Shown one piece after another: positions 685 through 15,437 of a stretch of DNA of 64,000 bases. The stretch lies in the IMG/VR virus record IMGVR_UViG_3300009182_000039, positions 1-64,000 of that record. The stretch is one strand, 5' to 3'. The first letter of the stretch is position 1. Every line of letters begins with the position of its first letter. The translations under genes and the position numbers were made by a program. Under the pieces are notes generated by a model, which worked only from the letters and a program-made list of their open reading frames with translations, had not been told where the DNA came from and did not search any database. Origin of the DNA: a virus.

Positions 685-1018
685 GAATTGTTGTAATTCC
701 TCCGTAAGGAAGGCGCTGTGGACGGGAGTTCGATTCTCCCCGGATCCACCAAAGCATACTCCGAACCAAGTTATTGGTAGCAAGGGTGTAGCCCGAGTAT
801 GCTTTAGTGGGTCCGACCGGTTTCGACATGGTGAGATAATGAAAGAGGCAACACGGTAGGCGATGACCGTTAATCAAGCAAATCTCGTAAATGCAAAAGC
901 ATCTACTGGCGAAGTAACTGTTTCAGCTAAGAACATCAAGTTCCGCACTTTAGCAGCTAAAGGCCAATCATTAGCAGTTTAATCACTGCTTAGGGCAGGA
1001 AATGCCTCGTAACAGAAA
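685..1018 (+). ncRNA. ssrA: Circularly permuted (two-piece) tmRNA gene
   Basis: The parts of tmRNA occur in permuted order. The 3' acceptor piece comes first: a T arm (GGGAG, loop TTCGATT, CTCCC) and CGGATCC + A + CCA ending at 751. The 5' piece follows: GGGTCCG at 809-815, pairing over all seven bases with CGGATCC at 741-747 (one G-T pair), then the tmRNA signature GGTTTCGACATGG. Between the two lies an intervening segment closed by a perfect 10-bp stem (752-761 with 795-804) that processing would remove. The resume codon, tag frame and stop (893-982) and an intrinsic terminator (1025-1050) follow. Permuted ssrA genes are established in Alphaproteobacteria, some Betaproteobacteria and cyanobacteria. 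Outer limits are approximate. Confidence 0.9.
893..982 (+). other. tmRNA proteolysis-tag reading frame
   Basis: Following the likely resume codon GCA (893-895, preceded by GTAAAT as in many tmRNAs), the frame runs 29 codons to TAA at 980-982. The deduced tag starts AKASTGEV and ends TLAAKGQSLAV. The stop lies in a small hairpin (AGCAGT, loop TTAATC, ACTGCT) that matches the position of helix 5 in standard tmRNA, which supports the frame. The ending LAV rather than LAA, the length, and an internal TLAA before the true end are unusual. The resume codon could instead be the GCA at 899. Confidence 0.7.
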
Positions 1019-1024
1019 CCACCA

Positions 1025-1050
1025 GAACCCGCTTCGGCGGGTTTCTTTTT
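1025..1050 (+). terminator. Intrinsic terminator of the tmRNA gene
   Basis: A GC-rich stem GAACCCGC / GCGGGTTTC with a TTCG tetraloop is followed by TTTTT. It sits directly after the coding piece of the permuted tmRNA. Confidence 0.88.
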
Positions 1051-2647: not shown

Positions 2648-3253
2648 ATGCGTTATACTGATAATATCCCTTTACATTGTTTTCCCGTTGATACTAAAAT
2701 TGATATACCTAAGTTGTATGAAAGTGTAGTAATTTTATTACAAAGATTAGGATTAAGTCTTATCGTAGTCGATAGTATACTCAAAAAACAAAAAGCATTC
2801 GCAATAAATTTAACACATTTGCCGCACTTAACAGGCGATGCAAGGTGGAAGGCTCATACAGGCACACATGATTTGGTTAAAAAAGAAGGTGTAAACGAAG
2901 GTGACTTTGTTACAGTACTAGCCGAGTTAGAGGGATTATATTTAGCTCAAGTGTTTAATGATATACTTAGAATTCATGGCAAACCATTTCAAGGTAGAAC
3001 TCAACTGTCGTGGCGAGGCGCCGGATCATTATATCAATTCCATACTGATCCACATACAGCTAATAGATACCATATACCCATTGTAACCAACAACAAATGT
3101 TATTGGGTATTTAAAAATAAAGAAGAATTCATCAAAGTAACTATGCCAGCTGACGGAAGGGCGTGGTATGTAGACCCAACTAAATTAAAACATACTTTTA
3201 TTAACGATTCAAATGAAGCTAGATTGCATTTATTAATGACTAGCGAAATATAG
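2648..3253 (+). CDS. 2OG-Fe(II) dioxygenase, aspartyl/asparaginyl hydroxylase-like
   Basis: This 201-residue protein has the double-stranded beta-helix signature of the aspartyl/asparaginyl beta-hydroxylase group. The iron ligands appear as H132-T-D134, followed by R140-Y-H-I-P, with a distal H182 and the 2OG-binding Arg at R192 (EARLHLLM). The family hydroxylates Asp/Asn side chains or related small substrates using Fe(II), 2-oxoglutarate and oxygen; the substrate here is unknown. The start is fixed by AATAAATA five bases upstream and the lack of a ribosome site. It is one of about twelve 2OG-type enzymes in the window, most of them too divergent from each other to be recent copies. Confidence 0.8.
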   Translation: MRYTDNIPLHCFPVDTKIDIPKLYESVVILLQRLGLSLIVVDSILKKQKAFAINLTHLPHLTGDARWKAHTGTHDLVKKEGVNEGDFVTVLAELEGLYLAQVFNDILRIHGKPFQGRTQLSWRGAGSLYQFHTDPHTANRYHIPIVTNNKCYWVFKNKEEFIKVTMPADGRAWYVDPTKLKHTFINDSNEARLHLLMTSEI

Positions 3254-3266
3254 TAATATATCTATC

Positions 3267-3335
3267 GCGGGATAGAGATATAATATCTCGAGGGTCTCGC
3301 CTTATTTCTTGGTGTAATCAAAGATCCCGCAACCA
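3267..3335 (+). other. tRNA-like element, degenerate
   Basis: GCGGGAT (3267-3273) pairs fully with ATCCCGC (3324-3330) and AACCA follows, as at a tRNA end but with one base too many before CCA. Internal arms are poor: GAGATAT/ATATCTC replaces a normal D arm and no standard anticodon or T loop can be drawn. It may be a decayed tRNA or a mimic, next to functional tRNA-Asp. Confidence 0.35.
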
Positions 3336-3340
3336 AACAC

Positions 3341-3417
3341 GGTTTGGTAGTTCAATTGGTTAGAGCACCGCCCTGTCACGGCGGAAGTTGCGAGTTCGAG
3401 TCTCGTCCAGACCGCCA
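3341..3417 (+). tRNA. tRNA-Asp (GTC)
   Basis: Acceptor GGTTTGG pairs with CCAGACC, discriminator G, CCA encoded. The anticodon arm CCGCC/GGCGG has loop CTGTCAC, giving GTC. D arm GTTCAATTGGTTAGAGC and T loop TTCGAGT are standard. Confidence 0.95.
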
Positions 3418-3420
3418 AGA

Positions 3421-3577
3421 ATGTCGCCCGACCTAGGGGTTGAAACTAGGGGTTGCTGACTCGCCATAGCAGTCAGGGTTAGGTAGGTTAGACAAAAATC
3501 TCCACGCAGGTTGTAGCGGATACAACTAACAGTGATAACTCAAGCCCGGGGCTCTACGACAATGAGTAGCCGGGCAC
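3421..3577 (+). other. Structured spacer between tRNA-Asp and tRNA-Glu
   Basis: No frame of useful length is seen. The spacer carries at least three strong stems: ACCTAG with TTAGGT enclosing CTGACT/AGTCAG, then GTTGTA/TACAAC (3510-3515 with 3521-3526), then GCCCGG/CCGGGC (3544-3549 with 3570-3575). This is much more structure than neighbouring spacers hold and could be a small RNA or a processed precursor. Confidence 0.4.
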
Positions 3578-3580
3578 TTC

Positions 3581-3656
3581 GCTCCCATCGTCTAGAGGCC
3601 TAGGACACCGCCCTTTCACGGCGGGTACGCCGGTTCGAATCCGGCTGGGAGCGCCA
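3581..3656 (+). tRNA. tRNA-Glu (TTC)
   Basis: Acceptor GCTCCCA pairs with TGGGAGC, discriminator G, CCA encoded. Anticodon arm CCGCC/GGCGG with loop CTTTCAC gives TTC. Confidence 0.95.
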
Positions 3657-3674
3657 AACATTAAATAATAATAC

Positions 3675-3749
3675 GAGTCCCTGATGTCAACGGTAGCATG
3701 TCGGTCTCCAAAACCGATCGTCGGAGTTCGAATCTCTGGGGATTCGCCA
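3675..3749 (+). tRNA. tRNA-Trp (CCA)
   Basis: Acceptor GAGTCCC pairs with GGGATTC (one G-T), discriminator G, CCA encoded. Anticodon arm TCGGT/ACCGA with loop CTCCAAA gives CCA. The D arm (TGTCAACGGTAGCA) is weaker than usual. Confidence 0.92.
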
Positions 3750-3769
3750 AATAAATTTGAAAGATATTA

Positions 3770-4243
3770 ATGAAATTTAACATACCTCAAATCAAAGAAT
3801 TTGTTGACCGACAGGGTCCTGATACTAGGATTTATATTGGTGTAGACTCTGAGCGAATTAAAAGAGATAAAGTTTGGTATGCTGATTATACTGCGGCCAT
3901 TGTAGTACACATCGATGGCAAGCACGGATGTAAGTTATTTGGCGAAGTAACTCGCGAACGAGATTATGATAGAGTAGACAAGCCTAATACTAGACTAATG
4001 ATGGAAGTGTTTAAGGTTAGTGAGCTATACTTAAAACTTGCTGAAGTCTTAGAAAATAGAGCAGTAGAAGTACACTTAGATATTAATCCAGACGAAAATC
4101 ACACAAGTTCTAATGTGGTGGCGCAGGCAATAGGATATATACGAGGCACTTGTAATGTTGAACCACTTGTTAAACCTCGCGCATTCGCAGCAACTTATGC
4201 GGCAGATAGGATGAAAGGGTTACGAGTAGCAAACGAATTTTAA
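3770..4243 (+). CDS. RNase H-like nuclease, DUF458/YkuK type
   Basis: This 157-residue protein matches the ribonuclease H-like DUF458 (YkuK) family in its whole layout. A first strand is IYIGVDSERI with acidic D26, a second strand region is TAAIVVHIDG, a helix contains LMMEVFKVSELY, then VHLDINPDENHTSS with D104 and D108, and a last helix AATYAADR with D146. These acidic residues could form a two-metal site. The exact substrate of this family is not established; RNA or DNA cleavage is the expected chemistry. It sits alone between tRNA-Trp and tRNA-Leu, so a link to tRNA or RNA processing is tempting but unproven. Confidence 0.8.
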   Translation: MKFNIPQIKEFVDRQGPDTRIYIGVDSERIKRDKVWYADYTAAIVVHIDGKHGCKLFGEVTRERDYDRVDKPNTRLMMEVFKVSELYLKLAEVLENRAVEVHLDINPDENHTSSNVVAQAIGYIRGTCNVEPLVKPRAFAATYAADRMKGLRVANEF

Positions 4244-4244
4244 T

Positions 4245-4329
4245 GGGAATGTGGAGAAACAGGTATACTCACAAGACTTAAAATCTTGCGCCGTAAGGCA
4301 TGGCGGTTCGATCCCGCCCATTCCTACCA
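4245..4329 (+). tRNA. tRNA-Leu (TAA)
   Basis: Class II tRNA with acceptor GGGAATG/CATTCCT (first pair G-T), discriminator A and encoded CCA. Anticodon arm CAAGA/TCTTG with loop CTTAAAA gives TAA. The extra arm is short (CGCCGTAAGGCA). It starts one base after the stop of the RNase H-like gene. Confidence 0.93.
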
Positions 4330-4346
4330 GGAGTCAAAGTTTTAAT

Positions 4347-4380
4347 GCGAGGTTAGTTTAATGGTATTGAGAGCATAGCG
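4347..4380 (+). pseudogene. 5' tRNA-half-like fragment
   Basis: GCGAGGTTAGTTTAATGGTA looks like an acceptor strand plus D arm. No anticodon arm follows; intact tRNA-Gly begins at 4382. The 3' strand ACTCCGC at 5215-5221 can pair with GCGAGGT at six of seven positions (one G-T), so this may be the 5' remnant of a tRNA split by the tRNA-Gly/HNH insert. The heptamer AGCATAG occurs here (4372-4378) and at 5181-5187. Confidence 0.35.
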
Positions 4381-4381
4381 A

Positions 4382-4453
4382 GCGGGTGTAACTCAGTGGT
4401 AGAGTGTCAGCCTTCCAAGCTGTTCGTCGCAGGTTCAATCCCTGTCACCCGCT
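4382..4453 (+). tRNA. tRNA-Gly (TCC), no encoded CCA
   Basis: Acceptor GCGGGTG pairs with CACCCGC and the discriminator is T, but the next bases are CGG, not CCA, unlike most tRNA genes of the window. The anticodon arm TCAGC/GCTGT with loop CTTCCAA gives TCC. The antisense HNH gene ends inside this tRNA. Confidence 0.9.
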
Positions 4454-5171
4454 CGGTATGTTTTTGATTCCAGATATGAATTTTTTCTAATAATTGTTCA
4501 ATAGTTAGGTCGCATTTGCTGTGTTTAATTTTATTTTTTGAATGTAACATTATTCGGCAATTAGCAGGATGAGAAATAATTTTTGGATCAATATTATTAG
4601 CAAATCCGTAACTAACAGATATAATATGATCTCGACTAACTCCTAAAACATTTTTAGGGTGTCCTTTTCTTTTTAATCCTGGGCAAGTATACCATCCATG
4701 TTGTTCTATTAGTGACAGGTCAAATTCTCCTGGATAGTGATATACATTAAATCTAAATCTAGCAGAAGCATAATATTGCTCTTTAATAGTTTTGATATAT
4801 GGTGAAGATTTACGAATAGTGCCGTCTGGATTTTTATTAGAATAATATCGATTAGTATGTTTGCATAATATAAATTTTATTTTAGAATACGGAAATTTTT
4901 CTGTAGCAGTGGGTCCTCTTTTTCGAGAAATACTATTTGTAATTTTAGACGCACAACTATTTGAGCAATATTTATTTTTTCTTTTATTAAACTTGAGGGG
5001 TGTTTGACAACATTTACATTTAACAGGATTGAGGCTATATTTGATTTTAGATTTTTCTAAATTGGTTTTATTTCTAAAAGTAGTTCCGCATGATAAGGAA
5101 CAGAATTTTCCATATGATCCTGGAGTTATATTAAATAGGTTAGAACAATGTTGACAAATAGCAGTTTTCAT
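4407..5171 (-). CDS. HNH homing-type endonuclease with zinc ribbons
   Basis: The 254-residue protein starts MKTAICQHC; I chose this ATG over one 15 bases upstream because GCTAAATA lies five bases before it. Two zinc-ribbon-like units come first (C6-x2-C9 with C24-x3-C28; C52-x2-C55 with CSNSC). A C-terminal HNH nuclease core follows (SRDHIISVSYGF, then HPANCRIMLHSKNKIKH). The gene is antisense to the tRNAs and its last codons read through the complement of tRNA-Gly (ending TGIEPATNSLEG), as expected for a mobile gene dropped among tRNA genes. tRNA pieces flank both sides. It probably spreads by cutting sites in related phages; the target is unknown. Confidence 0.82.
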   Translation of the reverse strand: MKTAICQHCSNLFNITPGSYGKFCSLSCGTTFRNKTNLEKSKIKYSLNPVKCKCCQTPLKFNKRKNKYCSNSCASKITNSISRKRGPTATEKFPYSKIKFILCKHTNRYYSNKNPDGTIRKSSPYIKTIKEQYYASARFRFNVYHYPGEFDLSLIEQHGWYTCPGLKRKGHPKNVLGVSRDHIISVSYGFANNIDPKIISHPANCRIMLHSKNKIKHSKCDLTIEQLLEKIHIWNQKHTERVTGIEPATNSLEG

Positions 5172-5176
5172 ACTAT

Positions 5177-5184
5177 TATTTAGC
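5177..5184 (-). promoter_or_regulatory. T4-late-type element GCTAAATA
   Basis: On the minus strand GCTAAATA ends five bases before the ATG of the HNH gene (5171). The same spacing recurs before many genes here. Confidence 0.35.
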
Positions 5185-5190
5185 ATAGTT

Positions 5191-5225
5191 TAAGGAAAAG
5201 AGTTCGATTCTCTCACTCCGCTCCA
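5191..5225 (+). pseudogene. 3' tRNA-half fragment with CCA
   Basis: A T arm (AGAG, TTCGATT, CTCT), acceptor strand ACTCCGC, discriminator T and CCA (5223-5225) are present without any matching 5' portion directly upstream. It abuts the start region of the HNH gene. It may be the displaced 3' end of the tRNA whose 5' half is at 4347-4380. Confidence 0.5.
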
Positions 5226-5244
5226 TTATTTAAAGGTCACTATT

Positions 5245-5835
5245 ATGTTTGAAGATTTTAATTTTTTACCAGGAGACAAAATACTATTTGCTGGCAAATT
5301 GCCTGATGAAATTTTTTCGGAAATAGCTCAATTTGTTGAGCATTGTAGGAAAATTAAAGACCATCCATTGGGTCACTTGTATAATCATGTAAATAAAGGT
5401 AAAAATTCATATCAGATATCAGTTCCAAGACATCTATTAGAGCAATCATTTTTATTTCCATATATGATTAAGTTAGGTGAATATTATTTAAAAGAATATA
5501 ATATTAATAATACTTATGTAAAACCGGTAAGATTAAGATCAAACCATAATCATTACGACGGATACGATTGTTGGATTAATTTTACGACTAAAGGCGATAG
5601 TAATCCGCAACATTATCATAGTGGAGCATTGTCAGGCGTAATTTATTATTCTAATATTGATAAATGTCCAACTATTTTTGAAAACGGTGTAAGCTATGCT
5701 GGTAAAGAACAAGAAATTATAATTTTCCCTGCTAAGTTAGAGCATTCTGTAGCTACACATATTAGTGATAATGAACGTATTACATTAAGTTTTAATTTAG
5801 AATTATTAGAGAGTAAAAATGCGGGTATGGTGTAA
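5245..5835 (+). CDS. 2OG-Fe(II) oxygenase, 2OG-FeII_Oxy_5 type
   Basis: The 196-residue protein has the layout of the phage-common putative 2OG-Fe(II) oxygenase family. The motif is NPQHYHSGALSGVIYY with H123 and H125, a distal H167 in FPAKLEHSV and an Arg at R178 (ERITLSFNLEL). These should bind Fe(II) and 2-oxoglutarate; the substrate is unknown. Members of this type are very frequent in aquatic phages. The last 15 bases of the gene overlap the first bases of tRNA-Gly(GCC), so the stop codon lies inside the tRNA acceptor region. Upstream lies the broken tRNA 3' half, with no obvious promoter. Confidence 0.82.
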   Translation: MFEDFNFLPGDKILFAGKLPDEIFSEIAQFVEHCRKIKDHPLGHLYNHVNKGKNSYQISVPRHLLEQSFLFPYMIKLGEYYLKEYNINNTYVKPVRLRSNHNHYDGYDCWINFTTKGDSNPQHYHSGALSGVIYYSNIDKCPTIFENGVSYAGKEQEIIIFPAKLEHSVATHISDNERITLSFNLELLESKNAGMV

Positions 5836-5894
5836 TGGTAACCCGAGACCTTGCCAAGGTTTAGTTGAGAGTTCGATTCTCTCTACCCGCTCCA
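5821..5894 (+). tRNA. tRNA-Gly (GCC)
   Basis: Acceptor GCGGGTA pairs with TACCCGC, discriminator T, CCA encoded. Anticodon arm AGACC/GGTTT with loop TTGCCAA gives GCC. Overlaps the 3' end of the upstream oxygenase gene by 15 bases. Confidence 0.93.
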
Positions 5895-5900
5895 ATCAAT

Positions 5901-5976
5901 GGTAACTGTAGTTCAATGGTAGAATCCAGGATTGTGATTCCTGTCGTTGTGGGTTCGAGTCCCATCAGTTACCCCA
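5901..5976 (+). tRNA. tRNA-His (GTG)
   Basis: The extra G-1 typical of tRNA-His is encoded (5901) and pairs with C73 (5973). The acceptor is GTAACTG/CAGTTAC, CCA encoded. Anticodon arm CAGGA/TCCTG with loop TTGTGAT gives GTG. Confidence 0.93.
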
Positions 5977-6052
5977 AACTATGTAATTTTGGTAAGATTG
6001 TTGTCAACTTAATGTAAACTTCAAGCGTTAATATAGTATGCTAGGAGGCATT

Positions 6053-6208
6053 ATGTTAACAACTACAAAACCCAATTACAAAGATCCTAAAGTAGGATAC
6101 TCTACGCAAGATTCATATTTGCGAATGAAATGTCCTAACTGTGATAAACGTCGTAGCGGGCCTTGTAGTCATCCCAGCATACTTAACCTTAAAGGAAATT
6201 CAAAATGA
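6053..6208 (+). CDS. Small zinc-binding-like protein, 51 aa
   Basis: A 51-residue product carries C27-P-N-C30 and a further Cys/His pair in SGPCSHPS, a plausible single zinc site. The rest is polar with no membrane segment. The ATG has a strong ribosome site (AGGAGG, seven bases upstream). The stop TGA overlaps the next ATG (ATGA at 6205-6208), so it is translationally coupled to the secreted Lys/Ala-rich protein. Function unknown; the motif would fit a small regulator or RNA/DNA-binding peptide. Confidence 0.65.
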   Translation: MLTTTKPNYKDPKVGYSTQDSYLRMKCPNCDKRRSGPCSHPSILNLKGNSK

Positions 6209-6378
6209 AACAATTAATCGCAATCGTAGCAAGTGTATTCGCATTATCAGCAGTTGCTGCAGACGCACCTAAAGCGCCAGCCGCACCAGCTAAGGTAGAG
6301 AAAAAGGACGCACAGCCTTCCAAAAGCGCCGCGCCTGCTGTCAAAGAAACAAAAACAGCGACTCCAGCTTCTAAGTAA
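6205..6378 (+). CDS. Secreted Ala/Lys/Pro-rich small protein, 57 aa
   Basis: The first 19 residues (MKQLIAIVASVFALSAVAA) form a signal peptide with an AxA-type cleavage site. The mature part is a low-complexity string of Ala, Lys and Pro (APKAPAAPAKVEKK), likely unstructured in the periplasm. It overlaps the upstream zinc-type gene by four bases. A coding-like frame directly downstream (6377-6568) lacks its own start and lies in the +1 frame relative to this gene, which raises the possibility of a frameshifted fusion. No family is recognised. Confidence 0.6.
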   Translation: MKQLIAIVASVFALSAVAADAPKAPAAPAKVEKKDAQPSKSAAPAVKETKTATPASK

Positions 6379-6568
6379 TTTTAAATTTGAAGATTCAGAC
6401 GATGACTACTACGAGGATACTCCGGATATCCATGTAGGACGTTGTCGTCCTGAACTTATTAAAGTTGATGTTATTGATAACGACATTGACTTAACTGATG
6501 ATATTAAAATTAGATTAGCTGTAGCCAGATTAAAGGCGCTGAAGAAATATGAAAAGGTTTGGGGATAA
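6377..6568 (+). CDS. Coding-like frame without a standard start, about 63 aa
   Basis: From 6377 to the TAA at 6566-6568 the frame encodes an acidic stretch (FEDSDDDYYEDTPD) and a helical end (DIKIRLAVARLKALKKYEKVWG) that reads like a genuine protein. Upstream the frame is open back to 6299 but contains no ATG, GTG or TTG. It is +1 relative to the signal-peptide gene ending at 6378. Options are a programmed +1 frameshift near TCT-AAG-TAA, a rare start codon, a decayed gene, or an assembly error. I cannot decide between them from sequence alone. Confidence 0.4.
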   Translation, partial: NFKFEDSDDDYYEDTPDIHVGRCRPELIKVDVIDNDIDLTDDIKIRLAVARLKALKKYEKVWG

Positions 6569-6586
6569 TACTCTAAACCTTTTTCA
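6552..6586 (+). terminator. Terminator-like hairpin
   Basis: AAAAGGTTT (6552-6560) pairs with AAACCTTTT (6575-6583), with T residues on the 3' arm. The 5' arm lies inside the end of the preceding coding frame. The U tract is partly used in the stem. Confidence 0.55.
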
Positions 6587-6627
6587 TTTGTAGTACAATT
6601 TTTTATTAATTTAGAAAGGAGCACGAT

Positions 6628-7233
6628 ATGCCAGCAGTATTTTTAGTTAGTGATACGCACTTTGGTCACGCAGGTGTATGTCGCTTCACTCGCAATGATG
6701 GCGTGACAAAACTTCGCCCGTGGGACAATGCCGAGGAAATGGATGAAGCCATGATCAAGGCATGGAACGAGCGAGTACGGCCAAACGATAAAGTTTACCA
6801 CTTAGGCGATGTTGTTATTAATCGTAAGGCCTTGCCTATATTAAATAGGCTCAACGGTGATAAAGTTCTGATCCGTGGTAACCATGATATTTTTAAGGAC
6901 GAAGACTATACTCCTTACTTCCGTAGTCTTCGTGGATACCATGTTATGAACGGAATGATTCTTAGTCATATTCCTCTTCATACGGAAAGCCTTGGACGCT
7001 TTGGTGTTAACATTCACGGACACCTTCACGCTAATCGCGTAAAGAAAATTCGTAGCGTTAATGTTAAGACCGGTGAACTTCTTTACAGTAATGAGAACGA
7101 TGTCCGCTACCATTGCGTATGCGTAGAACAGACCCCGGACTTCGCTCCTATCCTTTTTGAAGATGTTATCAAACGCATTGAAGCCGAAGGTGGTGTAGTT
7201 GGATTTCAAAATGGAAACGGTCCAACGATGTAG
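6628..7233 (+). CDS. Calcineurin-like metallophosphoesterase
   Basis: All blocks of the calcineurin-like phosphoesterase superfamily are present in order: SDTHFGH (D9, H11), GDVV (D61), RGNHD (N85, H86), SH at 113-114 and HGHLH (130-134). These residues build the two-metal site. At 201 residues it has just the catalytic domain, of the size seen in small bacterial and phage phosphoesterases that act on nucleotides or nucleic-acid ends; the substrate cannot be told. A good ribosome site (AAAGGAG) precedes the ATG and it appears to start its own unit after the hairpin at 6552-6586. Confidence 0.92.
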   Translation: MPAVFLVSDTHFGHAGVCRFTRNDGVTKLRPWDNAEEMDEAMIKAWNERVRPNDKVYHLGDVVINRKALPILNRLNGDKVLIRGNHDIFKDEDYTPYFRSLRGYHVMNGMILSHIPLHTESLGRFGVNIHGHLHANRVKKIRSVNVKTGELLYSNENDVRYHCVCVEQTPDFAPILFEDVIKRIEAEGGVVGFQNGNGPTM

Positions 7234-7236
7234 TGG

Positions 7237-7244
7237 GCTAAATA
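7237..7244 (+). promoter_or_regulatory. T4-late-type element GCTAAATA
   Basis: GCTAAATA ends four bases before the ATG at 7249. No ribosome site is present, so a leaderless transcript is likely if this is a promoter. Confidence 0.4.
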
Positions 7245-7248
7245 TTAT

Positions 7249-7890
7249 ATGCGTAAAATTTTTAGCCCACTGCCCAATATTAAAGTAGATATTAATCGAT
7301 TATATTCGGAGATGCTTTATTACTGGCATCCAAACCTATCGTCTAGAGCTACTAGTGCAAGTTTTACCACAGCAAAAAAATATGTAGATGATCTTAATTG
7401 TGATTTTCTTAAATATACCGGTGCCGCTTATTTGTTGTCAAAAGATTCAATGGTGATGAAGTATCCTGATGGGGAGATCGATCAGGAATTAATATATTGG
7501 CCTAAATTACTGGAAAATAGTTATATGAAAGAATTAGGTGATCGCTTTGCTAATTTATTACAAGTTAAAAATTATCGAGCTAGAGCAAGTTATATGAATA
7601 CCTATGGCCTAATAGAAGATTTCCCCGCAGGAGATCTTCATACAGATCAGCACACGCCTTATAGATTACACATAGCACTAAATACTAGTCTTGGTGTAAA
7701 ATGGAGATTTGAAAACGAAGCCGGGCTAACTCAGTATATACATCAACCAGCCGATGGAGTACCAGTATTGATAGAAACTGGAAAAACTAAACACCAAGTC
7801 ATAATCCCTAAAGATTCTATAAGAATCCATCTGTATTATCAATATTACGAAGATATTGATCAAACTTTGTTAGATAATATACTACAATGA
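7249..7890 (+). CDS. 2OG dioxygenase, aspartyl/asparaginyl hydroxylase-like
   Basis: The 213-residue protein shows H131-T-D133, then R139-L-H-I-A, and a distal pair H182 and R192 (KDSIRIHLYYQ). This is the same cupin-type arrangement as in the enzyme at 2648-3253, although overall sequence is very different. The reaction should be Fe(II)/2OG-dependent hydroxylation of an unknown substrate. It overlaps the QueC-like gene by four bases (ATGA), so the two products may act in one pathway. Confidence 0.75.
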   Translation: MRKIFSPLPNIKVDINRLYSEMLYYWHPNLSSRATSASFTTAKKYVDDLNCDFLKYTGAAYLLSKDSMVMKYPDGEIDQELIYWPKLLENSYMKELGDRFANLLQVKNYRARASYMNTYGLIEDFPAGDLHTDQHTPYRLHIALNTSLGVKWRFENEAGLTQYIHQPADGVPVLIETGKTKHQVIIPKDSIRIHLYYQYYEDIDQTLLDNILQ

Positions 7891-8507
7891 ATATAATCTG
7901 TGGTCCAGAAAATGATAAGCGTACTATCTCTATTACTCTCCCTAAACAAAAATCTCGAATAGGTATATTTGTTAGTGGCGGATTAGATAGTGCTATACTA
8001 TACTATTTGTTATTAATAGAAAATAACTTGCGTGGAAACTTTCACGAAATTATACCTATCTCTGTTATGCGTAAAGAAGGATCAAAATACTGTAGTAAAA
8101 TTGTAGCAGGCCATATCCACGGACATTTTAAATTACCCCAATTAGATCCATTAATTATGGGAGACAATACGCTACCCGAAGAAGAACAAGTAAAATCTGG
8201 AATTGAACAAGCTCTTGCTAACCAATTTGATTTAGTCTATGCTGGAGTAATTGAACAACTACCGCAACATATGGTTGGGTGGCAACCTATACCTTCACAA
8301 GAAACTAAAAAATTTAAAACTCCTTTTAAAACTCTTAATAAAAGTCATATCATAGATTTAATAAGCAAACTTAATCAAGAAACATTATTTTATATTACAC
8401 ATAGTTGCTCTGTACAAGAAATAGGCAGATGTAACTACTGTAACGGATGTAACGAACGAGCTTGGGGATTCAAGCAGTTAGGATTGTCTGATCCAGGAAC
8501 TATATAA
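7887..8507 (+). CDS. QueC-like PP-loop enzyme with zinc site
   Basis: The N-terminal PP-loop SGGLDS (30-35) marks an ATP-pyrophosphatase-type enzyme. The C-terminus has four Cys (C174, then C182-x2-C185-x2-C188) followed by RAWGFKQLGLSDPGT, which matches the ending of 7-cyano-7-deazaguanine synthase (QueC). QueC turns 7-carboxy-7-deazaguanine into preQ0; phages use such products to modify DNA or tRNA. No other queuosine or DNA-transglycosylase gene lies in the window, and the middle part is divergent, so a related amidation or nitrile-forming reaction on another acid is also possible. Co-translated with the 2OG enzyme upstream. Confidence 0.72.
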   Translation: MNIICGPENDKRTISITLPKQKSRIGIFVSGGLDSAILYYLLLIENNLRGNFHEIIPISVMRKEGSKYCSKIVAGHIHGHFKLPQLDPLIMGDNTLPEEEQVKSGIEQALANQFDLVYAGVIEQLPQHMVGWQPIPSQETKKFKTPFKTLNKSHIIDLISKLNQETLFYITHSCSVQEIGRCNYCNGCNERAWGFKQLGLSDPGTI

Positions 8508-9090
8508 ATTTTGTTATTATATTAACAAGATCTCGATAATTAGCAGGCCTAGGAGTTGGTTTGGTCTTTGAATTAAATTGAATAATATCTTCATAACATA
8601 ATTCAAGATCTGTAGTAATACTCTCTACTATCTTATTAGACTCTAATATATGCTTTATACAAATATTAATCTTCTCTTCATCTAACATAATAAGATCATT
8701 TGACTGAAACTCTGTTATAGATTTTTCAAACTGTGATAAGTTATTCCTGTTTTCTCCCCAATACACCCAAACATTTCTTATTAGTGCAATGTAGTAGCTA
8801 GCTATTTGTTCAACTATATCTTTGCGACTGAGTTTAATTTTAAAATTTTGATCAGCAAAAATATACTCTGTAAGAGTTGCTGGATAGGTAGGTATGTGAT
8901 CTACTATTATTTTTAAAACATGTTTATTTTTAGATTGTTCAATAAATTGTTCTAGTTGAAAATCTGGCGCTGGCTCGCTATAGTACAACACACCTGGATT
9001 AGAATTTGCAATATGATAACCAATTGCGTTACTTCCTGTTCTGGGACTAGCAAATATAACTACTGGATATTTTGTAATATTAATATTCAT
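8500..9090 (-). CDS. Sulfotransferase-family protein
   Basis: The start of the 196-residue protein, VIFASPRTGSNAIGYHIA (residues 11-28), is the 5'-phosphosulfate-binding loop of sulfotransferases, and KLSRKDIVEQIASYY (86-100) has the R and S of the 3'-phosphate site. The protein is smaller than most family members, and the C-terminus is poorly conserved. It would transfer sulfate from PAPS to a sugar, lipid or small molecule, or may have lost catalysis. It is the last gene of a minus-strand unit with two 2OG-type genes and converges with the QueC-like gene (8-base overlap). Confidence 0.75.
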   Translation of the reverse strand: MNINITKYPVVIFASPRTGSNAIGYHIANSNPGVLYYSEPAPDFQLEQFIEQSKNKHVLKIIVDHIPTYPATLTEYIFADQNFKIKLSRKDIVEQIASYYIALIRNVWVYWGENRNNLSQFEKSITEFQSNDLIMLDEEKINICIKHILESNKIVESITTDLELCYEDIIQFNSKTKPTPRPANYRDLVNIITKFI

Positions 9091-9135
9091 TTAACCAAAA
9101 ATCGTATTTGTTTAATAATTCTTTATATAACTTAT

Positions 9136-9669
9136 TCATTTGTGTATAGATAAATCTGGTGTAAAGCGTACACTAAGAATCATTCTAGTGTGATTAGAAA
9201 AATTTGTTACGCTATGTGGAGTATCAATGTCTACAACCATCGGGCAATCAACTTTAACAATTTTTGCTAGATTAGGACCGTGATGCCAAATTATATCTAA
9301 ATATGCTAGCCCACGATTATCTTCTGTTTTTAAAGTATAGGCGCCGTCATACCAAAACATTTCAGCATCGCTTGATGTAATAGGAATATTTACAGCCCAG
9401 TTTGGGTGACCTTCCCTATTAGGTTTTATTCCATCAACATGAATTATTCCTCTTAACTTAGGCGGCTGAATAAAAATTATTGCGTTAGCAACTTTATGTT
9501 CTAATTTAGTAAATGCGTTGACATCGGATAAAATCTGTTCTGCTATCCAATTTCTTTCATCGGCAGATAATACTATGCTCCGTTTATTATGAGCAATTAA
9601 TTCTTTATCTTTGAACTTATCTTGTATAATTTTCCAGTTAGATATAGTAATTGGCTGTGTATATTTCAT
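9136..9669 (-). CDS. 2OG dioxygenase-like protein
   Basis: The 177-residue protein has H77-V-D79 in GIIHVDG, a core strand NWAVNIPI, a distal H152 in DTPHSV and R162 in TRMILSVRF. This is the HxD...H plus Arg arrangement of 2OG-Fe(II) dioxygenases. Its ATG overlaps the stop of the upstream frameshifted gene (ATGA), so the three genes in this stretch form one minus-strand operon. The substrate is unknown. Confidence 0.7.
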   Translation of the reverse strand: MKYTQPITISNWKIIQDKFKDKELIAHNKRSIVLSADERNWIAEQILSDVNAFTKLEHKVANAIIFIQPPKLRGIIHVDGIKPNREGHPNWAVNIPITSSDAEMFWYDGAYTLKTEDNRGLAYLDIIWHHGPNLAKIVKVDCPMVVDIDTPHSVTNFSNHTRMILSVRFTPDLSIHK

Positions 9670-9814
9670 AATATATAATCTTTAAAAATTTCAAGTGATT
9701 CTTGCATAGTAACTCGTTCGCGGGTTGATTTATGTTTAAAAACTCTATTACCGATAAGTTAGTGTTAAAAAGAGGCAACCCTAAGTTAAGATCTACACAA
9801 TATTCATTTATCAT
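9666..9814 (-). pseudogene. Short frameshifted gene between two 2OG-type genes
   Basis: An ATG at 9814 (overlapping the end of the upstream gene by 11 bases) opens a frame starting MINEYCVDLNLGLPLF. The frame that ends with an ATGA overlap onto the next gene encodes NRVFKHKSTRERV...EIFKDYIL. The two lie in different frames and join near 9750. One frameshift would produce a protein of about 49 residues with normal couplings at both ends. Either the gene is broken or the assembly has a single-base error. Confidence 0.5.
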
Positions 9815-10388
9815 GATAAGTTATATTAGGTATCGGGGGAAGCGAGAAATCAGTTCGGTTACTCCACGGTAATAATCTAATACTTATACCTATAGCCACT
9901 TCGTCACTAGTATTGGTAAGATTATGCCACTGAGCCACATTAGATATAAACGGTGTTGTACAAAAGATATCTTGCAATGGTCTAGTATCTTTTAATTTTA
10001 TACTAGGTACTGCGTTAAATTTTTTCTTTTCACTGTAGTTAAATATAGCATCTGGGTTAACAACTTTGTGCCAAAACCATTTTAATTTATCGCAATTTTT
10101 CAAAGGTAACATAAGAGTTTGATTTATAAGTAAATCTGCTGGCATATCTTTACGATTATCCGAATGAATAACAATTGATGAATTTGGCAGGAAATATACT
10201 AATAATATGTTATGCCCATCATAGGTTGATTTATCTACTCGTAGTAATTCAAAAATTTGTTGCTGGATATGCTCGTCTAATCTTCCCACAAATCCTATTT
10301 TTGGATTAGGAATATCTGGAGGATCAATTAATTTTAAAATTTTATCTATCGGAGGATCAATCCAAGTTACTGGTTTATGTAGTTCCAT
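9804..10388 (-). CDS. 2OG/cupin-type dioxygenase-like protein
   Basis: With the start at 10388 (MELHKPVTW) the protein has 194 residues. H75-S-D77 appears in IVIHSDNR, followed by the strand LMLPL, with a distal H155 (QWHNLTN) and R171 (ISIRLLPW). This fits the divergent aspartyl-hydroxylase-like 2OG group. I chose this ATG over the one at 10415 because AATAAATA lies exactly five bases upstream, as for many genes here, and neither candidate has a ribosome site. It leads a minus-strand operon with the frameshifted gene, another 2OG gene and the sulfotransferase. Confidence 0.65.
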   Translation of the reverse strand: MELHKPVTWIDPPIDKILKLIDPPDIPNPKIGFVGRLDEHIQQQIFELLRVDKSTYDGHNILLVYFLPNSSIVIHSDNRKDMPADLLINQTLMLPLKNCDKLKWFWHKVVNPDAIFNYSEKKKFNAVPSIKLKDTRPLQDIFCTTPFISNVAQWHNLTNTSDEVAIGISIRLLPWSNRTDFSLPPIPNITYHDK

Positions 10389-10393
10389 AGAAA

Positions 10394-10401
10394 TATTTAT
10401 T
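10394..10401 (-). promoter_or_regulatory. T4-late-type element AATAAATA
   Basis: On the minus strand AATAAATA ends five bases before the ATG at 10388 and decides the start chosen for that gene. A perfect TATAAATA also reads on the plus strand at 10401-10408. Confidence 0.4.
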
Positions 10402-10432
10402 ATAAATATTTTCATGGTAAAAGATAAAAAAC

Positions 10433-10461
10433 TTGACTAATATTAATTTTTATAGTATAAT
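10433..10461 (+). promoter_or_regulatory. Sigma-70-type promoter TTGACT-N17-TATAAT
   Basis: TTGACT (10433-10438) and TATAAT (10456-10461) have 17-base spacing, followed by an AAGGA ribosome site and the ATG at 10486. It should drive the basic protein, the omega-like gene and tRNA-Ser. Confidence 0.85.
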
Positions 10462-10485
10462 ATATGTAACTTGAAAGGAATCATT

Positions 10486-10656
10486 ATGGCAAAAACACCA
10501 AAACAACAAACTGCTACCGATTTACAACGCACCTTAGCTGGTCAATGGAGTAAAACAGAAAAACGAGCAGAAGCAAGTCGCCAGATCATGGCCAGCAAGA
10601 AAAAAACACACGAAATTAATAAAGCCTTCCGTAACGCACAAATTTTAGCAAGATAA
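10486..10656 (+). CDS. Small basic protein, 56 aa
   Basis: The 56-residue product (MAKTPKQQTATDLQRTLAGQ, then RQIMASKKKTHEINKAF) is Lys/Arg-rich and probably helical, which fits a nucleic-acid-binding peptide. The ATG at 10486 has AAGGA eight bases upstream and follows a strong sigma-70 promoter, so it is likely expressed early. An in-frame TTG at 10471 is part of the ribosome-site region and was rejected as start. Nineteen bases separate it from the omega-like gene. No family recognised. Confidence 0.65.
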   Translation: MAKTPKQQTATDLQRTLAGQWSKTEKRAEASRQIMASKKKTHEINKAFRNAQILAR

Positions 10657-10675
10657 CCAACCATAAAGGTATAAT

Positions 10676-10975
10676 ATGAAACTAGTAGCTCAATCGCCAA
10701 CTGGCGATAAAATTGTTCCACGCTTAGTCCAATCTAAATATGATCCAACTAGTACAGTAGGCCGCACTTCGGAAGCGGCAGCCAAAGTAGTTGGACGCTA
10801 CGAACTAATTGCGATTGGTGCGGCTCGTATCCGTGAACTTCGGTCAGGTCATGCTAAACGAGTTCCATCAACATACGGCGACCTAGTCACAGTATTATTG
10901 GAAATTGAAGCTGGCGAGATTGATGCTGGCGAATATTTGTTAAAATCTACAGCGCCACCAAAGCGTTACAAGTAA
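10676..10975 (+). CDS. rpoZ-like: RNA polymerase omega-subunit-like protein
   Basis: The 99-residue protein contains GRYELIAIGAARIRELRSGH (about residues 41-60), which matches the helix of bacterial omega with its F/Y-E-L, A-x-R-A/I and SG features. It is followed by VTVLLEIEAGEI, the position of the second conserved omega helix. Omega binds beta-prime and stabilises RNA polymerase. A phage copy could replace host omega or tune promoter choice, for example away from ppGpp control; that is inference. It lies in a sigma-70-driven unit between a small basic protein and tRNA-Ser. Confidence 0.68.
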   Translation: MKLVAQSPTGDKIVPRLVQSKYDPTSTVGRTSEAAAKVVGRYELIAIGAARIRELRSGHAKRVPSTYGDLVTVLLEIEAGEIDAGEYLLKSTAPPKRYK

Positions 10976-10986
10976 AAAAGTATTAC

Positions 10987-11079
10987 GGAGAGCTGGCCGA
11001 GCGGTCGAAGGCACCCGCCTACTAAGCGGGCATGGATCTAAACAGTCCATCTGGGGTTCGAATCCCTAGCTCTCCGCCA
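10987..11079 (+). tRNA. tRNA-Ser with ACT anticodon
   Basis: Class II tRNA: acceptor GGAGAGC/GCTCTCC, discriminator G, CCA encoded, extra arm TGGA...TCCA. The anticodon arm CCCGC/GCGGG encloses CTACTAA, giving ACT where bacterial tRNA-Ser for AGY normally has GCT. A at the wobble position is very rare in bacteria. Confidence 0.92.
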
Positions 11080-11136
11080 AGAATTTTTGCCCGGTATATG
11101 ACCATTAATAAGTAAAATTACAACAAAGGAATACAC

Positions 11137-11376
11137 ATGGCAACCAAAGGTGGAAATCAAAAATCTCATAAATCAGATCCAATGCGTACCAAGAACGGTA
11201 AAGAGCGATTGGGTCCGTTAAATATTAGCCAATTAGAAAAATTATTATCTAATGCCCGTAAAAAAAATGTCGCTAAAATTCATCGTAGAATTAATGAATT
11301 AAAAAGTCGACCAGGATTCGTCAAAGCAGTTGAAGTATCTGCAGCAGAAGCCGCAGTGGTGGAGTCGTTGCTGTAA
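11137..11376 (+). CDS. Basic protein of unknown function, 79 aa
   Basis: The 79-residue protein starts with a Lys/Gly-rich flexible segment (MATKGGNQKSHKSDPMRTKN) and continues with two predicted helices (LNISQLEKLLSNARKKNVAK and IHRRINELKSRPGF) and an Ala-rich C-terminus. A good AAAGGA site precedes the ATG. The composition suggests nucleic-acid binding. It lies between tRNA-Ser and tRNA-Thr and probably shares their transcript. No family recognised. Confidence 0.65.
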   Translation: MATKGGNQKSHKSDPMRTKNGKERLGPLNISQLEKLLSNARKKNVAKIHRRINELKSRPGFVKAVEVSAAEAAVVESLL

Positions 11377-11390
11377 AGTAGTAAATCTGT

Positions 11391-11463
11391 GCCCTTATAG
11401 CTCAGTTGGTAGAGCACCGGTTTTGTAAACCGGTTGTCCCGTGTTCGAATCATGGTGGGGGCA
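11391..11463 (+). tRNA. tRNA-Thr (TGT), CCA not encoded
   Basis: Acceptor GCCCTTA pairs with TGGGGGC (two G-T pairs), discriminator A, then TAC rather than CCA. Anticodon arm CCGGT/ACCGG with loop TTTGTAA gives TGT. T arm CGTG, TTCGAAT, CATG is short. Confidence 0.9.
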
Positions 11464-11475
11464 TACCAGTATTAT

Positions 11476-11551
11476 TCCGGTCAAGCAAACACGGTGTAGG
11501 CGGTGGACTATTAATCCATGAAGCCTGGTTCGATTCCAGGGACCGGAGCCA
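11476..11551 (+). tRNA. tRNA-Asn with ATT anticodon
   Basis: Acceptor TCCGGTC pairs perfectly with GACCGGA, discriminator G, CCA encoded. The anticodon arm GTGGA/TCCAT encloses CTATTAA, giving ATT where GTT is expected. It is the second tRNA in this stretch with A in place of wobble G. Confidence 0.9.
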
Positions 11552-11558
11552 AAAATAT

Positions 11559-11876
11559 ATGACAACTAAGAAAAATATAGACCCGGGTAGACCAATAAGT
11601 CGCCCAATGGCCCCAATAACAACTGATACCAATTGGGGTAAGCAATTAACTAAAGCCGAATGGAAAAAGTTAATGAAAAAGTTAGACGCTAAGAAAAAGG
11701 AAAGAGAAATGTCAAAATTATCAGACACACTAGCCAAAGCATTGGCAAAGAAACAAGGCAAGACTCACGTAGACGGCAGTGATGCTGGCGCTACGGTAGA
11801 AAAAAAATCTAAAGTTAAACCTTCAGCTGGCCCGGCTAAAAAACCGCCTACTCGTAGTGCTGGACGAGGTCGTTAA
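11559..11876 (+). CDS. Lys-rich protein of unknown function, 105 aa
   Basis: The 105-residue product begins MTTKKNIDPGRPISRPMAP, has a central charged helix (WKKLMKKLDAKKKEREM) and ends in a low-complexity basic tail (KKPPTRSAGRGR) typical of nucleic-acid-binding proteins. The frame stays open further upstream through two tRNA genes, but the ATG at 11559, seven bases after tRNA-Asn, is the only sensible start. It converges directly with the minus-strand gene at 11877. Unknown family. Confidence 0.65.
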   Translation: MTTKKNIDPGRPISRPMAPITTDTNWGKQLTKAEWKKLMKKLDAKKKEREMSKLSDTLAKALAKKQGKTHVDGSDAGATVEKKSKVKPSAGPAKKPPTRSAGRGR

Positions 11877-12473
11877 TTATAATCCAAATAATGTTTTTTT
11901 AGCGTCATTGAAATAAAAAGATGCAGGATTGGTTATTCGTAGTGTTAGTACCATTCGTCGATTAGTGGATTGTCTATTATCAAAATCATGCCAGATATCC
12001 GTATTAAATAAAATACATTCGTTAGGTTTAGCCGTCATCGATTTAACTGGAGTATGTTTAGTTTTATCAAATCCGACAGCTTCTCTAGACGCATTTTCCC
12101 AATTAAGCCCTGTAATAGGGTAGTTAGACAAATCATTATCACTGTACCAATTAGTTACGCATTTATCATCTAAAATTTCTACGGTATAATTTAAACTTAT
12201 CCTATTATCACAACCATCTTTGTGTGCGCGGTAATATCTGCCGCCTTTAGTAACAAACATAGATGCCCTATTCTGTTGTAGAGCTAGACTCTGCGACAAT
12301 GGTGTAATAGCTAATATCTCTTGACGAATTTCTGGAGGGAATTTATAATGAGTAAATGTTTTTTCCAAATCTACCCCGTTCATGCCTTGTTTACAAATAT
12401 TGATAATCTTATCAAGACCATCGTGCGTGAATCTAATATAGTAAGGGCTACAATCTTCAATTACGGTGTACAT
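11877..12473 (-). CDS. 2OG dioxygenase-like protein
   Basis: The 198-residue protein carries H84-K-D86 in YYRAHKDGC, then a core strand RISLNYTVEI, a distal H162 in DIWHDFDNR and an Arg at 172/173 before MVLTLRI. This is a clear HxD...H plus Arg set of the 2OG-Fe(II) superfamily. A minus-strand AATAAATA lies four bases before its ATG. It stands alone on the minus strand between plus-strand units, converging with the Lys-rich gene (no gap). Substrate unknown. Confidence 0.75.
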   Translation of the reverse strand: MYTVIEDCSPYYIRFTHDGLDKIINICKQGMNGVDLEKTFTHYKFPPEIRQEILAITPLSQSLALQQNRASMFVTKGGRYYRAHKDGCDNRISLNYTVEILDDKCVTNWYSDNDLSNYPITGLNWENASREAVGFDKTKHTPVKSMTAKPNECILFNTDIWHDFDNRQSTNRRMVLTLRITNPASFYFNDAKKTLFGL

Positions 12474-12769: not shown

Positions 12770-13855
12770 ATGTCAGAAACAAGACAAGTCACCACTGTAC
12801 AAGCCAAACGTAGTTTACTCAAGGCTTTTAATCATAAGCGTCCATTATTTTTATGGGGCCCTCCAGGAATTGGTAAGTCAGAATTAGTAGCCGACATTGC
12901 CAAAGAACTAGGCGGTTATATGATTGACCTTCGCTTAGGTCAAATGGAGCCCACAGACATTCGTGGTATCCCGTTTTATAATAAAGAAGTCGGTAAAATG
13001 GATTGGGCAGAGCCAATTGATTTGCCAGATGAAGAACTAGCTAGTCAGTATCCAATCGTAGTATTGTTTATGGACGAGATGAATAGTGCGGCTCCTAGTG
13101 TACAGGCGGCGGCTTATCAGCTAATTTTGAATCGTCGTATTGGCAAATATAAACTGCCAGACAATGTTGTAATGGTTGCCGCTGGCAATCGTGAGTCGGA
13201 CAAAGGTGTTACATATCGTATGCCTACTCCACTGGCTAATCGTTTTATTCACCAAGAGATGAAAGTAGACTTTGCTTCTTGGCAAGATTGGGCAGTTACT
13301 CATAATATTCACAAAGATATTATCGGTTACTTAGGCTCTAATAAACAAGACTTATACGACTTTGATCCAAAAAGTTCTAGTCGTGCTTTTGCTACTCCCC
13401 GTAGTTGGTCCTTTGTAAGCGAAATTTTGTCAGACGATGACGGTGATGAAGAAACAATTACCAATTTAATCTCTGGTACAATCGGTGAAGGCTTGGCTAT
13501 TAAATTTAATGGCCACCGTAAGATTTCGGGTCGTATGCCTAAGCCAGAAGAAATTTTGTCTGGTAAAGTAACTACCTTGGATGTCAAAGAAGTTTCAGCT
13601 ATGTACTCTTTGGTTATCAGTATGTGCTATGAACTTAAAGATGCCGTGGAGAAGAAAGTATCCGACAAAGATTTCCACACTATGTCAGATTACTTCTTTG
13701 CCTACATGATGAAAAACTTTGAAACTGAGTTAGTGGTCATGGGTGCTCGTATTGCGTTAACTGTGTACAATCTTCCATTCCAACCAACTAAGTTGAAGAA
13801 CTTTGATGAGTTCCATAAGAAGTACGGCAAGTATATTCTGTCAGCTTCGGCATAA
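12770..13855 (+). CDS. MoxR-type AAA+ ATPase
   Basis: The 361-residue protein has a Walker A GPPGIGKS (30-37), a Walker B IVVLFMDE (96-103), an AAA+ sensor region (VVMVAAGNRESDKG) and an arginine-bearing ANRF segment, as in MoxR ATPases. MoxR proteins work with VWA-domain partners as chaperones that insert cofactors or remodel complexes. Here the partner is surely the metallopeptidase/VWA protein at 16894-18186. A consensus promoter and an AAAGGAA ribosome site indicate strong expression. Similar ATPase/VWA pairs occur in large phages, with no established role. Confidence 0.9.
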   Translation: MSETRQVTTVQAKRSLLKAFNHKRPLFLWGPPGIGKSELVADIAKELGGYMIDLRLGQMEPTDIRGIPFYNKEVGKMDWAEPIDLPDEELASQYPIVVLFMDEMNSAAPSVQAAAYQLILNRRIGKYKLPDNVVMVAAGNRESDKGVTYRMPTPLANRFIHQEMKVDFASWQDWAVTHNIHKDIIGYLGSNKQDLYDFDPKSSSRAFATPRSWSFVSEILSDDDGDEETITNLISGTIGEGLAIKFNGHRKISGRMPKPEEILSGKVTTLDVKEVSAMYSLVISMCYELKDAVEKKVSDKDFHTMSDYFFAYMMKNFETELVVMGARIALTVYNLPFQPTKLKNFDEFHKKYGKYILSASA

Positions 13856-13863
13856 TAGCTCAC

Positions 13864-13917
13864 AGGAGGGTGGTGTAGTAGTTGTACACAGGGCTGTGTT
13901 CGCACCGCCCTCCTACC
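13864..13917 (+). other. Mini tRNA-like hairpin element
   Basis: AGGAGGG (13864-13870) pairs with CCCTCCT (13908-13914), followed by ACC. Between them lie GTGTA/TACAC and GCTGTG/CACCGC arms with a TTCG loop. At 54 bases it resembles a tRNA lacking the anticodon arm. It could also act as a terminator or mRNA-end structure after the MoxR gene. Confidence 0.35.
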
Positions 13918-13935
13918 TTTTATAACTTATAACTT

Positions 13936-14688: not shown

Positions 14689-14926
14689 TTTGAATCCTAT
14701 TAATAATGAGCATTTTAAATATAATATTAAAATACCCATGATGCTTGATTTTCATCGTGTAAGACAATGGTTATCGGTTACTTATGGCTATAGCGATATA
14801 TTAGATGACGATAATCCTGCTAATGAGCATTGGGCATTTATAATTAGGTTAACCAGTAATGTAGTTTATTTAAAAGGCGAAAAAGAAGTTGCTTGGTTTA
14901 AAATTAAGTACGGTGAGTCATTATGA
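14663..14926 (+). CDS. Small F-x-L-K-W-family protein, 87 aa
   Basis: The 87-residue product ends WAFIIRLTSNVVYLKGEKEV then AWFKIKYGESL: an aromatic beta strand, a short loop and a terminal helix with A-W-F-x-I-K-Y. This pattern recurs in its neighbours. It is the first of six to eight overlapping small genes between the FkbM and VWA genes. The start overlaps the FkbM gene by 26 bases, and the end overlaps the next ATG (ATGA). Function unknown. Confidence 0.65.
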   Translation: MELVPLIYDLNPINNEHFKYNIKIPMMLDFHRVRQWLSVTYGYSDILDDDNPANEHWAFIIRLTSNVVYLKGEKEVAWFKIKYGESL

Positions 14927-15195: not shown

Positions 15196-15437
15196 TTTGT
15201 CGCCCGGGCACTCCAGCTCAATTAAAGTCTAATAGATTTCAATTAACTATTAACCCTATGAGTGGATCACCGGGGCTAATGGTCTTGGATCATATGTACT
15301 GGATAGAAAACGAACGAGAAATACTTAATTGGATGAATGAAACATTGCCGCAAGGTGTCGATCATATTGAAGGTATGACTATCCGGTTTAATAATGATTT
15401 TGATCGTATTAACTTTTTAATGAAGTGGGGGCCATGA
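15192..15437 (+). CDS. Small F-x-L-K-W-family protein, 81 aa
   Basis: The 81-residue product ends MTIRFNNDFDRINFLMKWGP, the clearest example of the strand-loop-helix ending shared by the small-protein family. Residues around LMVLDHMYWIENEREIL form a central helix. It overlaps both neighbours by four bases. Function unknown. Confidence 0.68.
   Translation: MICRPGTPAQLKSNRFQLTINPMSGSPGLMVLDHMYWIENEREILNWMNETLPQGVDHIEGMTIRFNNDFDRINFLMKWGP

Follow-up and report, generated by a model that had tools for sequence, protein, structure and literature searches.

A permuted phage tmRNA gene with a long conserved tag ending in Ala-Val and a possible phage ClpXP reader

Positions 640-1050 of the window (the whole 64,000-nt stretch of viral DNA analysed here) hold a circularly permuted tmRNA gene on a tailed-phage contig, as called by Rfam and ARAGORN. 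The most unusual part of the locus is one that the original prediction did not mention, a 29-residue tag, AKASTGEVTVSAKNIKFRTLAAKGQSLAV, that ends in -LAV and is without Ala-Ala. We found no earlier description of the tag family, and it is the part that merits follow-up. The gene almost certainly yields a functional tmRNA. For the overall reading, a working permuted phage tmRNA that relies on host SmpB and labels proteins as substrates of a ClpXP encoded by the phage itself, we see an even chance; the tmRNA and its tag are well supported, and the pairing with a private protease is what we infer. The RNA architecture, its covariation and the amino-acid conservation of the tag are direct observations.

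The Rfam model beta_tmRNA (RF01850; gathering score 84 bits) matched 640-925 with 112.6 bits (E 1.9e-33), and tmRNA_permuted (RF04321; gathering score 47 bits) matched 689-961 with 109.1 bits; ARAGORN independently called a permuted tmRNA at 659-1073. The two-piece gene proposed from the letters alone was thus borne out, including by the kind of covariance-model check suggested for it. All 16 related phage records tested also scored over the RF04321 gathering cut-off. Phage-borne permuted tmRNAs as a kind are already known and not remarkable: a scan of viral contigs gave at least 120 with this arrangement, and the relevant passages of PMC9004378 count 53 putative two-piece tmRNAs in phages, one of them described in an isolate.

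All features of the locus lie on the + strand. The acceptor (3′) piece, found at 689-751 by Rfam, ARAGORN and a stem/T-arm search, includes the P2 strand and has a putative 5′ end; it contains the T-arm GGGAG-TTCGATT-CTCCC (724-740) and the acceptor 3′ strand CGGATCC (741-747), followed by A748 and an encoded CCA (749-751). Next comes an intervening segment (752-808), predicted to be removed from the precursor and closed by a perfect 10-bp stem (752-761 with 795-804). The coding (mRNA-like) piece spans 809-1024, its 3′ end being putatively set at the last base before the terminator. It opens with the acceptor 5′ strand GGGTCCG (809-815), which makes seven pairs with 741-747, the third a G3-U70 wobble, and GGTTTCGAC stands at 819-827. 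The coordinates of the acceptor pairing, the CCA, the 10-bp stem and GGTTTCGAC had all been given exactly in the original prediction. G3-U70 is the alanine identity pair of the tRNA-like acceptor stem. The tag reading frame (893-982), assigned by ARAGORN, by the family and by codon analysis, starts at the resume codon GCA (893-895), runs for 29 residues (893-979) and stops at TAA (980-982). Covariation supports two further elements, a helix around the stop codon (973-990; AGCAG 973-977 with CTGCT 986-990) and a 3′ hairpin (GGGCA 993-997 with TGCCT 1003-1007) that is a candidate H-type pseudoknot (993-1023), in that CC at 1022-1023 is complementary to part of its loop, GGAAA (998-1002), in the window by two G-C pairs only. 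An intrinsic terminator (1025-1050) with an 8-bp stem containing five G-C pairs, a loop of four and a T tail closes the locus.

Upstream in the same orientation is a tRNA-Met (CAT) gene (338-412; ARAGORN; Rfam 77.6 bits). A consensus scan found one strong promoter-like site ahead of the two genes, at 300-328 (TTGACA-17-TATATT with an extended -10; 11/12 matches to the consensus), which probably starts a tRNA-Met and tmRNA transcription unit. The site is sigma-70-like, hinting at early or middle transcription, and gives no support to the proposed need for ribosome rescue late in infection.

The tag is where the gene departs from known models. In piece order, G3-U70 acceptor stem, T-arm, GGTTTCGAC, intervening hairpin and tag frame it is like members of RF04321 and RF01850; it differs in its 29 residues and -LAV end, and its family in a covarying pseudoknot after the stop codon. 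The usual tmRNA tag has 10 residues (PMC11915505). By a pattern scan, 60 viral contigs have the same tag core downstream of the resume site, with tags of 28-31 residues. Among these and the window's own gene (61 loci) there are 53 complete tag frames, representing 38 distinct DNA sequences and 31 distinct peptides; all of them end in -AV, none in the canonical Ala-Ala of ssrA tags. The tag has three parts: a conserved core (residues 1-17), a linker free to vary, and a terminus, mostly S-[L/F]-A-V, with [L/F]-A-V invariant in place of -Ala-Ala. In core codons 5-17 silent changes are about four times commoner per site than replacements (pS 0.204 versus pN 0.053), while linker codons 18-25 are unconstrained (0.277 versus 0.272) and end codons 26-29 give 0.154 versus 0.080. 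Ser11 is encoded by both TCN and AGT, and each of the 34 distinct frames of 29 residues closes with Val, even though the second base of codon 29 sits in an RNA loop. The first four codons show hardly any silent change (pS 0.02), so there is RNA-level constraint there too. Very probably, then, the tag is selected as a peptide.

Long tags as such are not confined to phages. About one-fifth of the viral sample has them by ARAGORN, and among about 17 permuted tmRNAs collected from cells by the same DNA pattern three have them too; we rejected the idea of a phage-only trait. A second scan found a sister tag family in 89 viral contigs (87 usable frames), with the core A[NTK]A[DN]TF[DE]FxAMSFTGN[TS]V and a variable linker. 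It too is constrained as a peptide core (codons 5-18, pS 0.36 versus pN 0.036), so that a long core with a degron end is a recurring design; it ends in -LAA in 41 of 43 distinct frames, and the -AV end is specific to the window's family. Sister-family tags take the form ANADTFDFSAMSFTGN[TS]V...ALAA (loci L237-L309, L009, L026, L034, L041, L052, L076 and L084). Odd tags also occur in permuted tmRNAs of Burkholderiaceae: ANTFMSKVTDVGHNYAGFAANDSRFQLVANA in Noviherbaspirillum aerium (L193/L201), VNNVYVEGKDIGSRFAGPVNDACERMTA in N. pedocola (L195/L212), VNNVYAKVGHVGGKYAGFMTNDGDRYSLAA in a MAG (L182/L200) and ANEPQFVAYGT in Herbaspirillum (L185/L199), the three long ones having a V/I-G-x-x-[YF]-A-G core in common.

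Which machinery would read the tag is suggested by the genes of related phages. SmpB was not found in 17 phage records, so host SmpB must serve, and Lon was not found in 14 related phage records. Two relatives of about 340 kb, G119 and G120, whose tags belong to the window's family, encode ClpA, ClpP and ClpX; the Clp genes noted in relatives with this tag are L332 and L333 (ClpX), L329 and L330 (ClpP), and L323 and L324 (ClpA). Several records encode a ClpA-like protein of some 760 residues, among them G123, where a single residue separates the tag from that of the window. The relatives' ClpX proteins score 470-482 bits against an NCBIfam cut-off of 370.75 and have the zinc domain, the GYVG pore loop and the IGF loop that contacts ClpP.

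In E. coli ClpX, T199, V202, R228 and H230 contact the last residues of the tag (PMC7652416). Bacterial ClpX proteins in the PDB have T, V, R and H at these four positions, and the relatives' do not: G120 has S, V, R, Q (T199S and H230Q), G119 has T, I, R, V (V202I and H230V), and G417, whose tag ends in AFA, has H, V, K, H (T199H and R228K, with H230 kept). Across 81 viral ClpX proteins about half (~40; the group of 40 as printed includes the E. coli row) are canonical at all tag-contact sites. Of the 41 H230-bearing phage proteins 40 have T199 and V202, and of the 40 (of 81) that have lost H230 only nine keep both. The viral set (L337-L416) splits roughly in half, into canonical proteins (YVTVRKH) and proteins with changes at the residues that contact ssrA. 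Up to 10 kb of flanking sequence at 80 viral ClpX genes gave no tmRNA by ARAGORN.

ClpX was sought in the window's record and in 39 further phage records that have a tmRNA; of these 40, three gave one (G119, G120 and G417). Among records of at least 200 kb with a tmRNA, it is present in three of four with non-Ala-Ala tags versus none of five with Ala-Ala ends (383, 353, 280, 270 and 212 kb). The fourth non-Ala-Ala record, G121 (228 kb, -LAV), is without ClpX; a 112-kb contig from the same sample has ClpX at the place syntenic to G120, in a part missing from G121, and the two lengths sum to 340 kb. A like partner contig of 149 kb, from the same sample as G122 (197 kb, -FAV), has ClpX at the syntenic place. 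These contigs probably belong with G121 and G122, and their ClpX proteins are altered at 199/202/228/230 (S, V, K, N in L344; S, V, K, T in L345). Tag and ClpX in one record are confined to two members of the window's tag family and one distant relative (the AFA tag), which share ancestry. Because the contigs are paired by synteny and sample, the records may be fragments and the phages are related, we treat the association of tag end and ClpX as a lead and not as a test. No Clp gene was found in the window's own 88.9-kb record, so its ClpX has to be deduced from relatives; in G120 the Clp genes lie at 182-270 kb, outside the part that matches the window's record (319 kb, across the record end, to 83 kb).

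As a mechanism, ordinary trans-translation has the best support, with the tag supplied by the phage. A single precursor would be made and 752-808 removed from it by host tRNA enzymes, after which the two RNA pieces would pair through the acceptor stem. Given G3-U70, host alanyl-tRNA synthetase would charge the RNA with alanine, and host SmpB would load it onto stalled ribosomes. There it would write the phage-only tag of 17-residue core, free linker and [L/F]-A-V end, and the tagged proteins would most likely be degraded by the phage's own ClpXP. That phage ClpXP is the main reader of the tag we rate just short of an even chance. Since the tag-contact residues of phage ClpX differ from the bacterial ones, the phage may sort its unfinished proteins along a route that is in part distinct from that of the host. 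More tentatively still, a jumbo-phage clade might possess a private, orthogonal tag-and-destroy pathway, in which a bipartite 28-31-residue [L/F]-A-V tag would be read mainly by phage ClpXP and poorly by host ClpXP, the pore-2 and RKH-loop residues having changed together with the tag end.

A change of tag and protease together does occur in nature: the SsrA tag of Mesoplasma florum is likewise long, has a non-LAA end (NYAFA) and is read by a dedicated protease, mf-Lon, instead of ClpXP (PMC9382460). That system is cellular and based on Lon, whereas the phage relatives have ClpX, ClpA and ClpP. ClpX, ClpA and ClpP are reported to be scattered in jumbo phages and have been explained by host attack, translocation or virion assembly (PMC7824862); the phages here differ in that they also have a tmRNA whose tag end has shifted, and a ClpX shifted at the tag contacts. 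In the literature searched, whose coverage was partial, we found no description of the tag family or of a possible private protease for it. To our knowledge, no clear reason for the existence of phage tmRNAs has emerged in the years over which they have been catalogued, and a conserved phage-only tag with a ClpX altered at the tag contacts may offer a testable one, quality control of the phage's own split from that of the host. If true, phages would supply a natural orthogonal pair of degron and protease, with uses comparable to those of the M. florum tag and mf-Lon.

The same evidence could be read in another way. The RNA might be an ordinary phage tmRNA that tops up rescue, its long tag read by host ClpXP (or Lon or ClpAP), with the extension and the AV end as neutral lineage markers. 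Host SmpB must be used in any case, the equally conserved long core of the sister family goes with -Ala-Ala, long tags are found in some bacteria, and the fully canonical half of the 81 viral ClpX proteins may count against reading by phage ClpXP. LAV also resembles the AAV-type degrons, and E. coli ClpXP does degrade AAV-ended tags, if at a slower rate, so that host ClpXP may suffice (PMC9382460). Against neutrality, an extension without a function would not be expected to hold its residues constant as silent sites diverge, no reversion of the terminal Val to Ala is seen, and ClpX of the same phages is shifted exactly at the positions that contact the tag. We consider this account less likely, but a real rival and the strongest of the competitors.

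Rescue without destruction, in which truncated proteins would be shielded or sorted by means of the tag, perhaps by a β-hairpin-like core, is improbable. The tag does lack the Ala-Ala end, the part that matters most for ClpXP (PMC7652416), and by eye the core alternates in a strand-turn-strand-like way (EVTV-SGKN-VKF). However, AlphaFold2 gave the tag no fold and no secondary structure (pLDDT 61), searches of Pfam and the PDB gave no homologue, and the relatives keep a complete Clp machinery. By eye the core had also resembled the C-terminal region of HU proteins, an idea dropped when the Pfam and PDB searches gave no match.

Conservation of the RNA itself was assessed over 61 related loci, the 60 viral contigs and the window's own gene. 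A stem/T-arm search, which gives one extra point for G-U, found a complete 7-bp acceptor stem and T-arm in 58; all 58 stems have G3-U70, and pairs 4-7 show compensatory changes. In shuffled upstream DNA the search gave any match in 39 of 1200 trials and a full match with G-U in one of 1200. An intervening hairpin of at least 6 bp is kept in 57 of 58 relatives despite differing sequence and a length of 23-124 nt, and CCA, encoded in the window, is encoded in 32 of 58. In the helix around the stop codon (33 distinct sequences) the first pair is A-T in 21, C-G in nine, T-A in two and G-C in one, and 154 of 165 cells are paired versus a shuffle maximum of 148; this first pair involves the third position of the codon for Leu or Phe, and the tag's choice of L or F therefore goes with its RNA partner. 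For the 3′ hairpin all 155 cells are paired (shuffle maximum 141), and four-base loops (15 sequences) covary with the downstream segment (GTTA/TAAC, ATTA/TAAT or TAGT, ACTA/TAGT), which identifies a pseudoknot; in L138 one pair of the loop with the downstream segment is broken. The tmRNA is therefore maintained as an RNA, through helices and a 3′ pseudoknot that covary. Non-canonical T-loops (GGCGGAG, GGCAGTG, GGCAGAG and TGCAACT) occur in L124, L129, L131, L134-L137, L164 and L168, where the tag and acceptor stem are kept; many of these members were missed by ARAGORN, and those tested were found by Rfam tmRNA_permuted.

Such conservation bears on two further ideas. The tag peptide or the RNA might act against the host, for instance by competing for SmpB or inhibiting a host protease, with tagging secondary, and in the case of phage DS6A a fragment of tmRNA reportedly inhibits the endogenous tmRNA (PMC11915505); conservation here extends to the frame of the tag, its stop codon and the structure at the 3′ end, none of which would matter to a decoy, and we regard this as very improbable. 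A decaying passenger captured from a host, as T-loops such as GGCGGAG or TGCAACT and the lack of an encoded CCA in some relatives might suggest, is scarcely credible against compensatory changes throughout, occurrence in 60 contigs, an upstream gene common to 45 of the 61 loci and purifying selection on the tag core.

The original prediction had also suggested capture from a host with permuted ssrA and held that the gene points to the host lineage. Neither idea gained support: the tag pattern had no match in 84,980 prokaryote genomes, a tag profile had no credible match in 394 Burkholderiaceae genomes, and a cellular relative with the same tag was not found. Weak profile matches in four of the 394 lay outside any tmRNA and were rejected. 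Permuted tmRNA is patchy in Burkholderiaceae (7 of 116 genomes over cut-off) and, in the genomes inspected, usually stands beside a standard tmRNA. Against 50,697 named phages the tag consensus gave no match by tblastn, and blastn for a related tmRNA in named phages returned only short T-arm and terminator matches. Permuted tmRNAs of Methylophilales phage Melnitz and of other phages in PMC9004378 are likewise phage-borne and aquatic, going by the passages concerned; these tie the RNA to Alphaproteobacteria and a glutamine riboswitch and do not discuss a tag family, whereas the window's RNA fits the beta-type model, and Rfam found no riboswitch in the window. Between loci, identity of the tag and of the tRNA-like half is uncorrelated (r 0.06), and L128 and L145 are identical in tag and 3′ end with only 46% likeness in the tRNA-like region. 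The gene is thus modular, its tRNA-like and tag halves shuffled within the phage family, so that neither half dates a capture. The upstream gene common to 45 loci indicates that the locus is stable within one phage group.

The carrier was rightly taken for a phage. The 88.9-kb record encodes a baseplate hub and wedge, virion structural proteins, a late sigma factor and a gp46/47-type nuclease, and ARAGORN found 13 tRNA genes on it. Its proteins are colinear with the corresponding part of G120, a 344-kb uncultivated jumbo phage, so that the window shows about a quarter of a genome. The nearest isolates are PA5oct-like Pseudomonas phages, with a nuclease only 53% identical. Directly 3′ of the tmRNA (1146-1598) is a small outer-membrane β-barrel protein with a signal peptide and weak matches to Porin_4 and OMP_b-brl. 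Between tRNA genes (2648-12473) lie 2-oxoglutarate/aspartyl-hydroxylase-like proteins and a QueC-like protein, followed by a MoxR-like AAA ATPase paired with a VWA/DUF2201 metallopeptidase-like protein (12770-18186), whose place is kept in G120 (82% and 77% identity). A reading frame of 4919 codons (54989-64000, − strand; L177:90-14849) adjoins the baseplate wedge gene and, by position, is putatively a giant virion or fibre protein.
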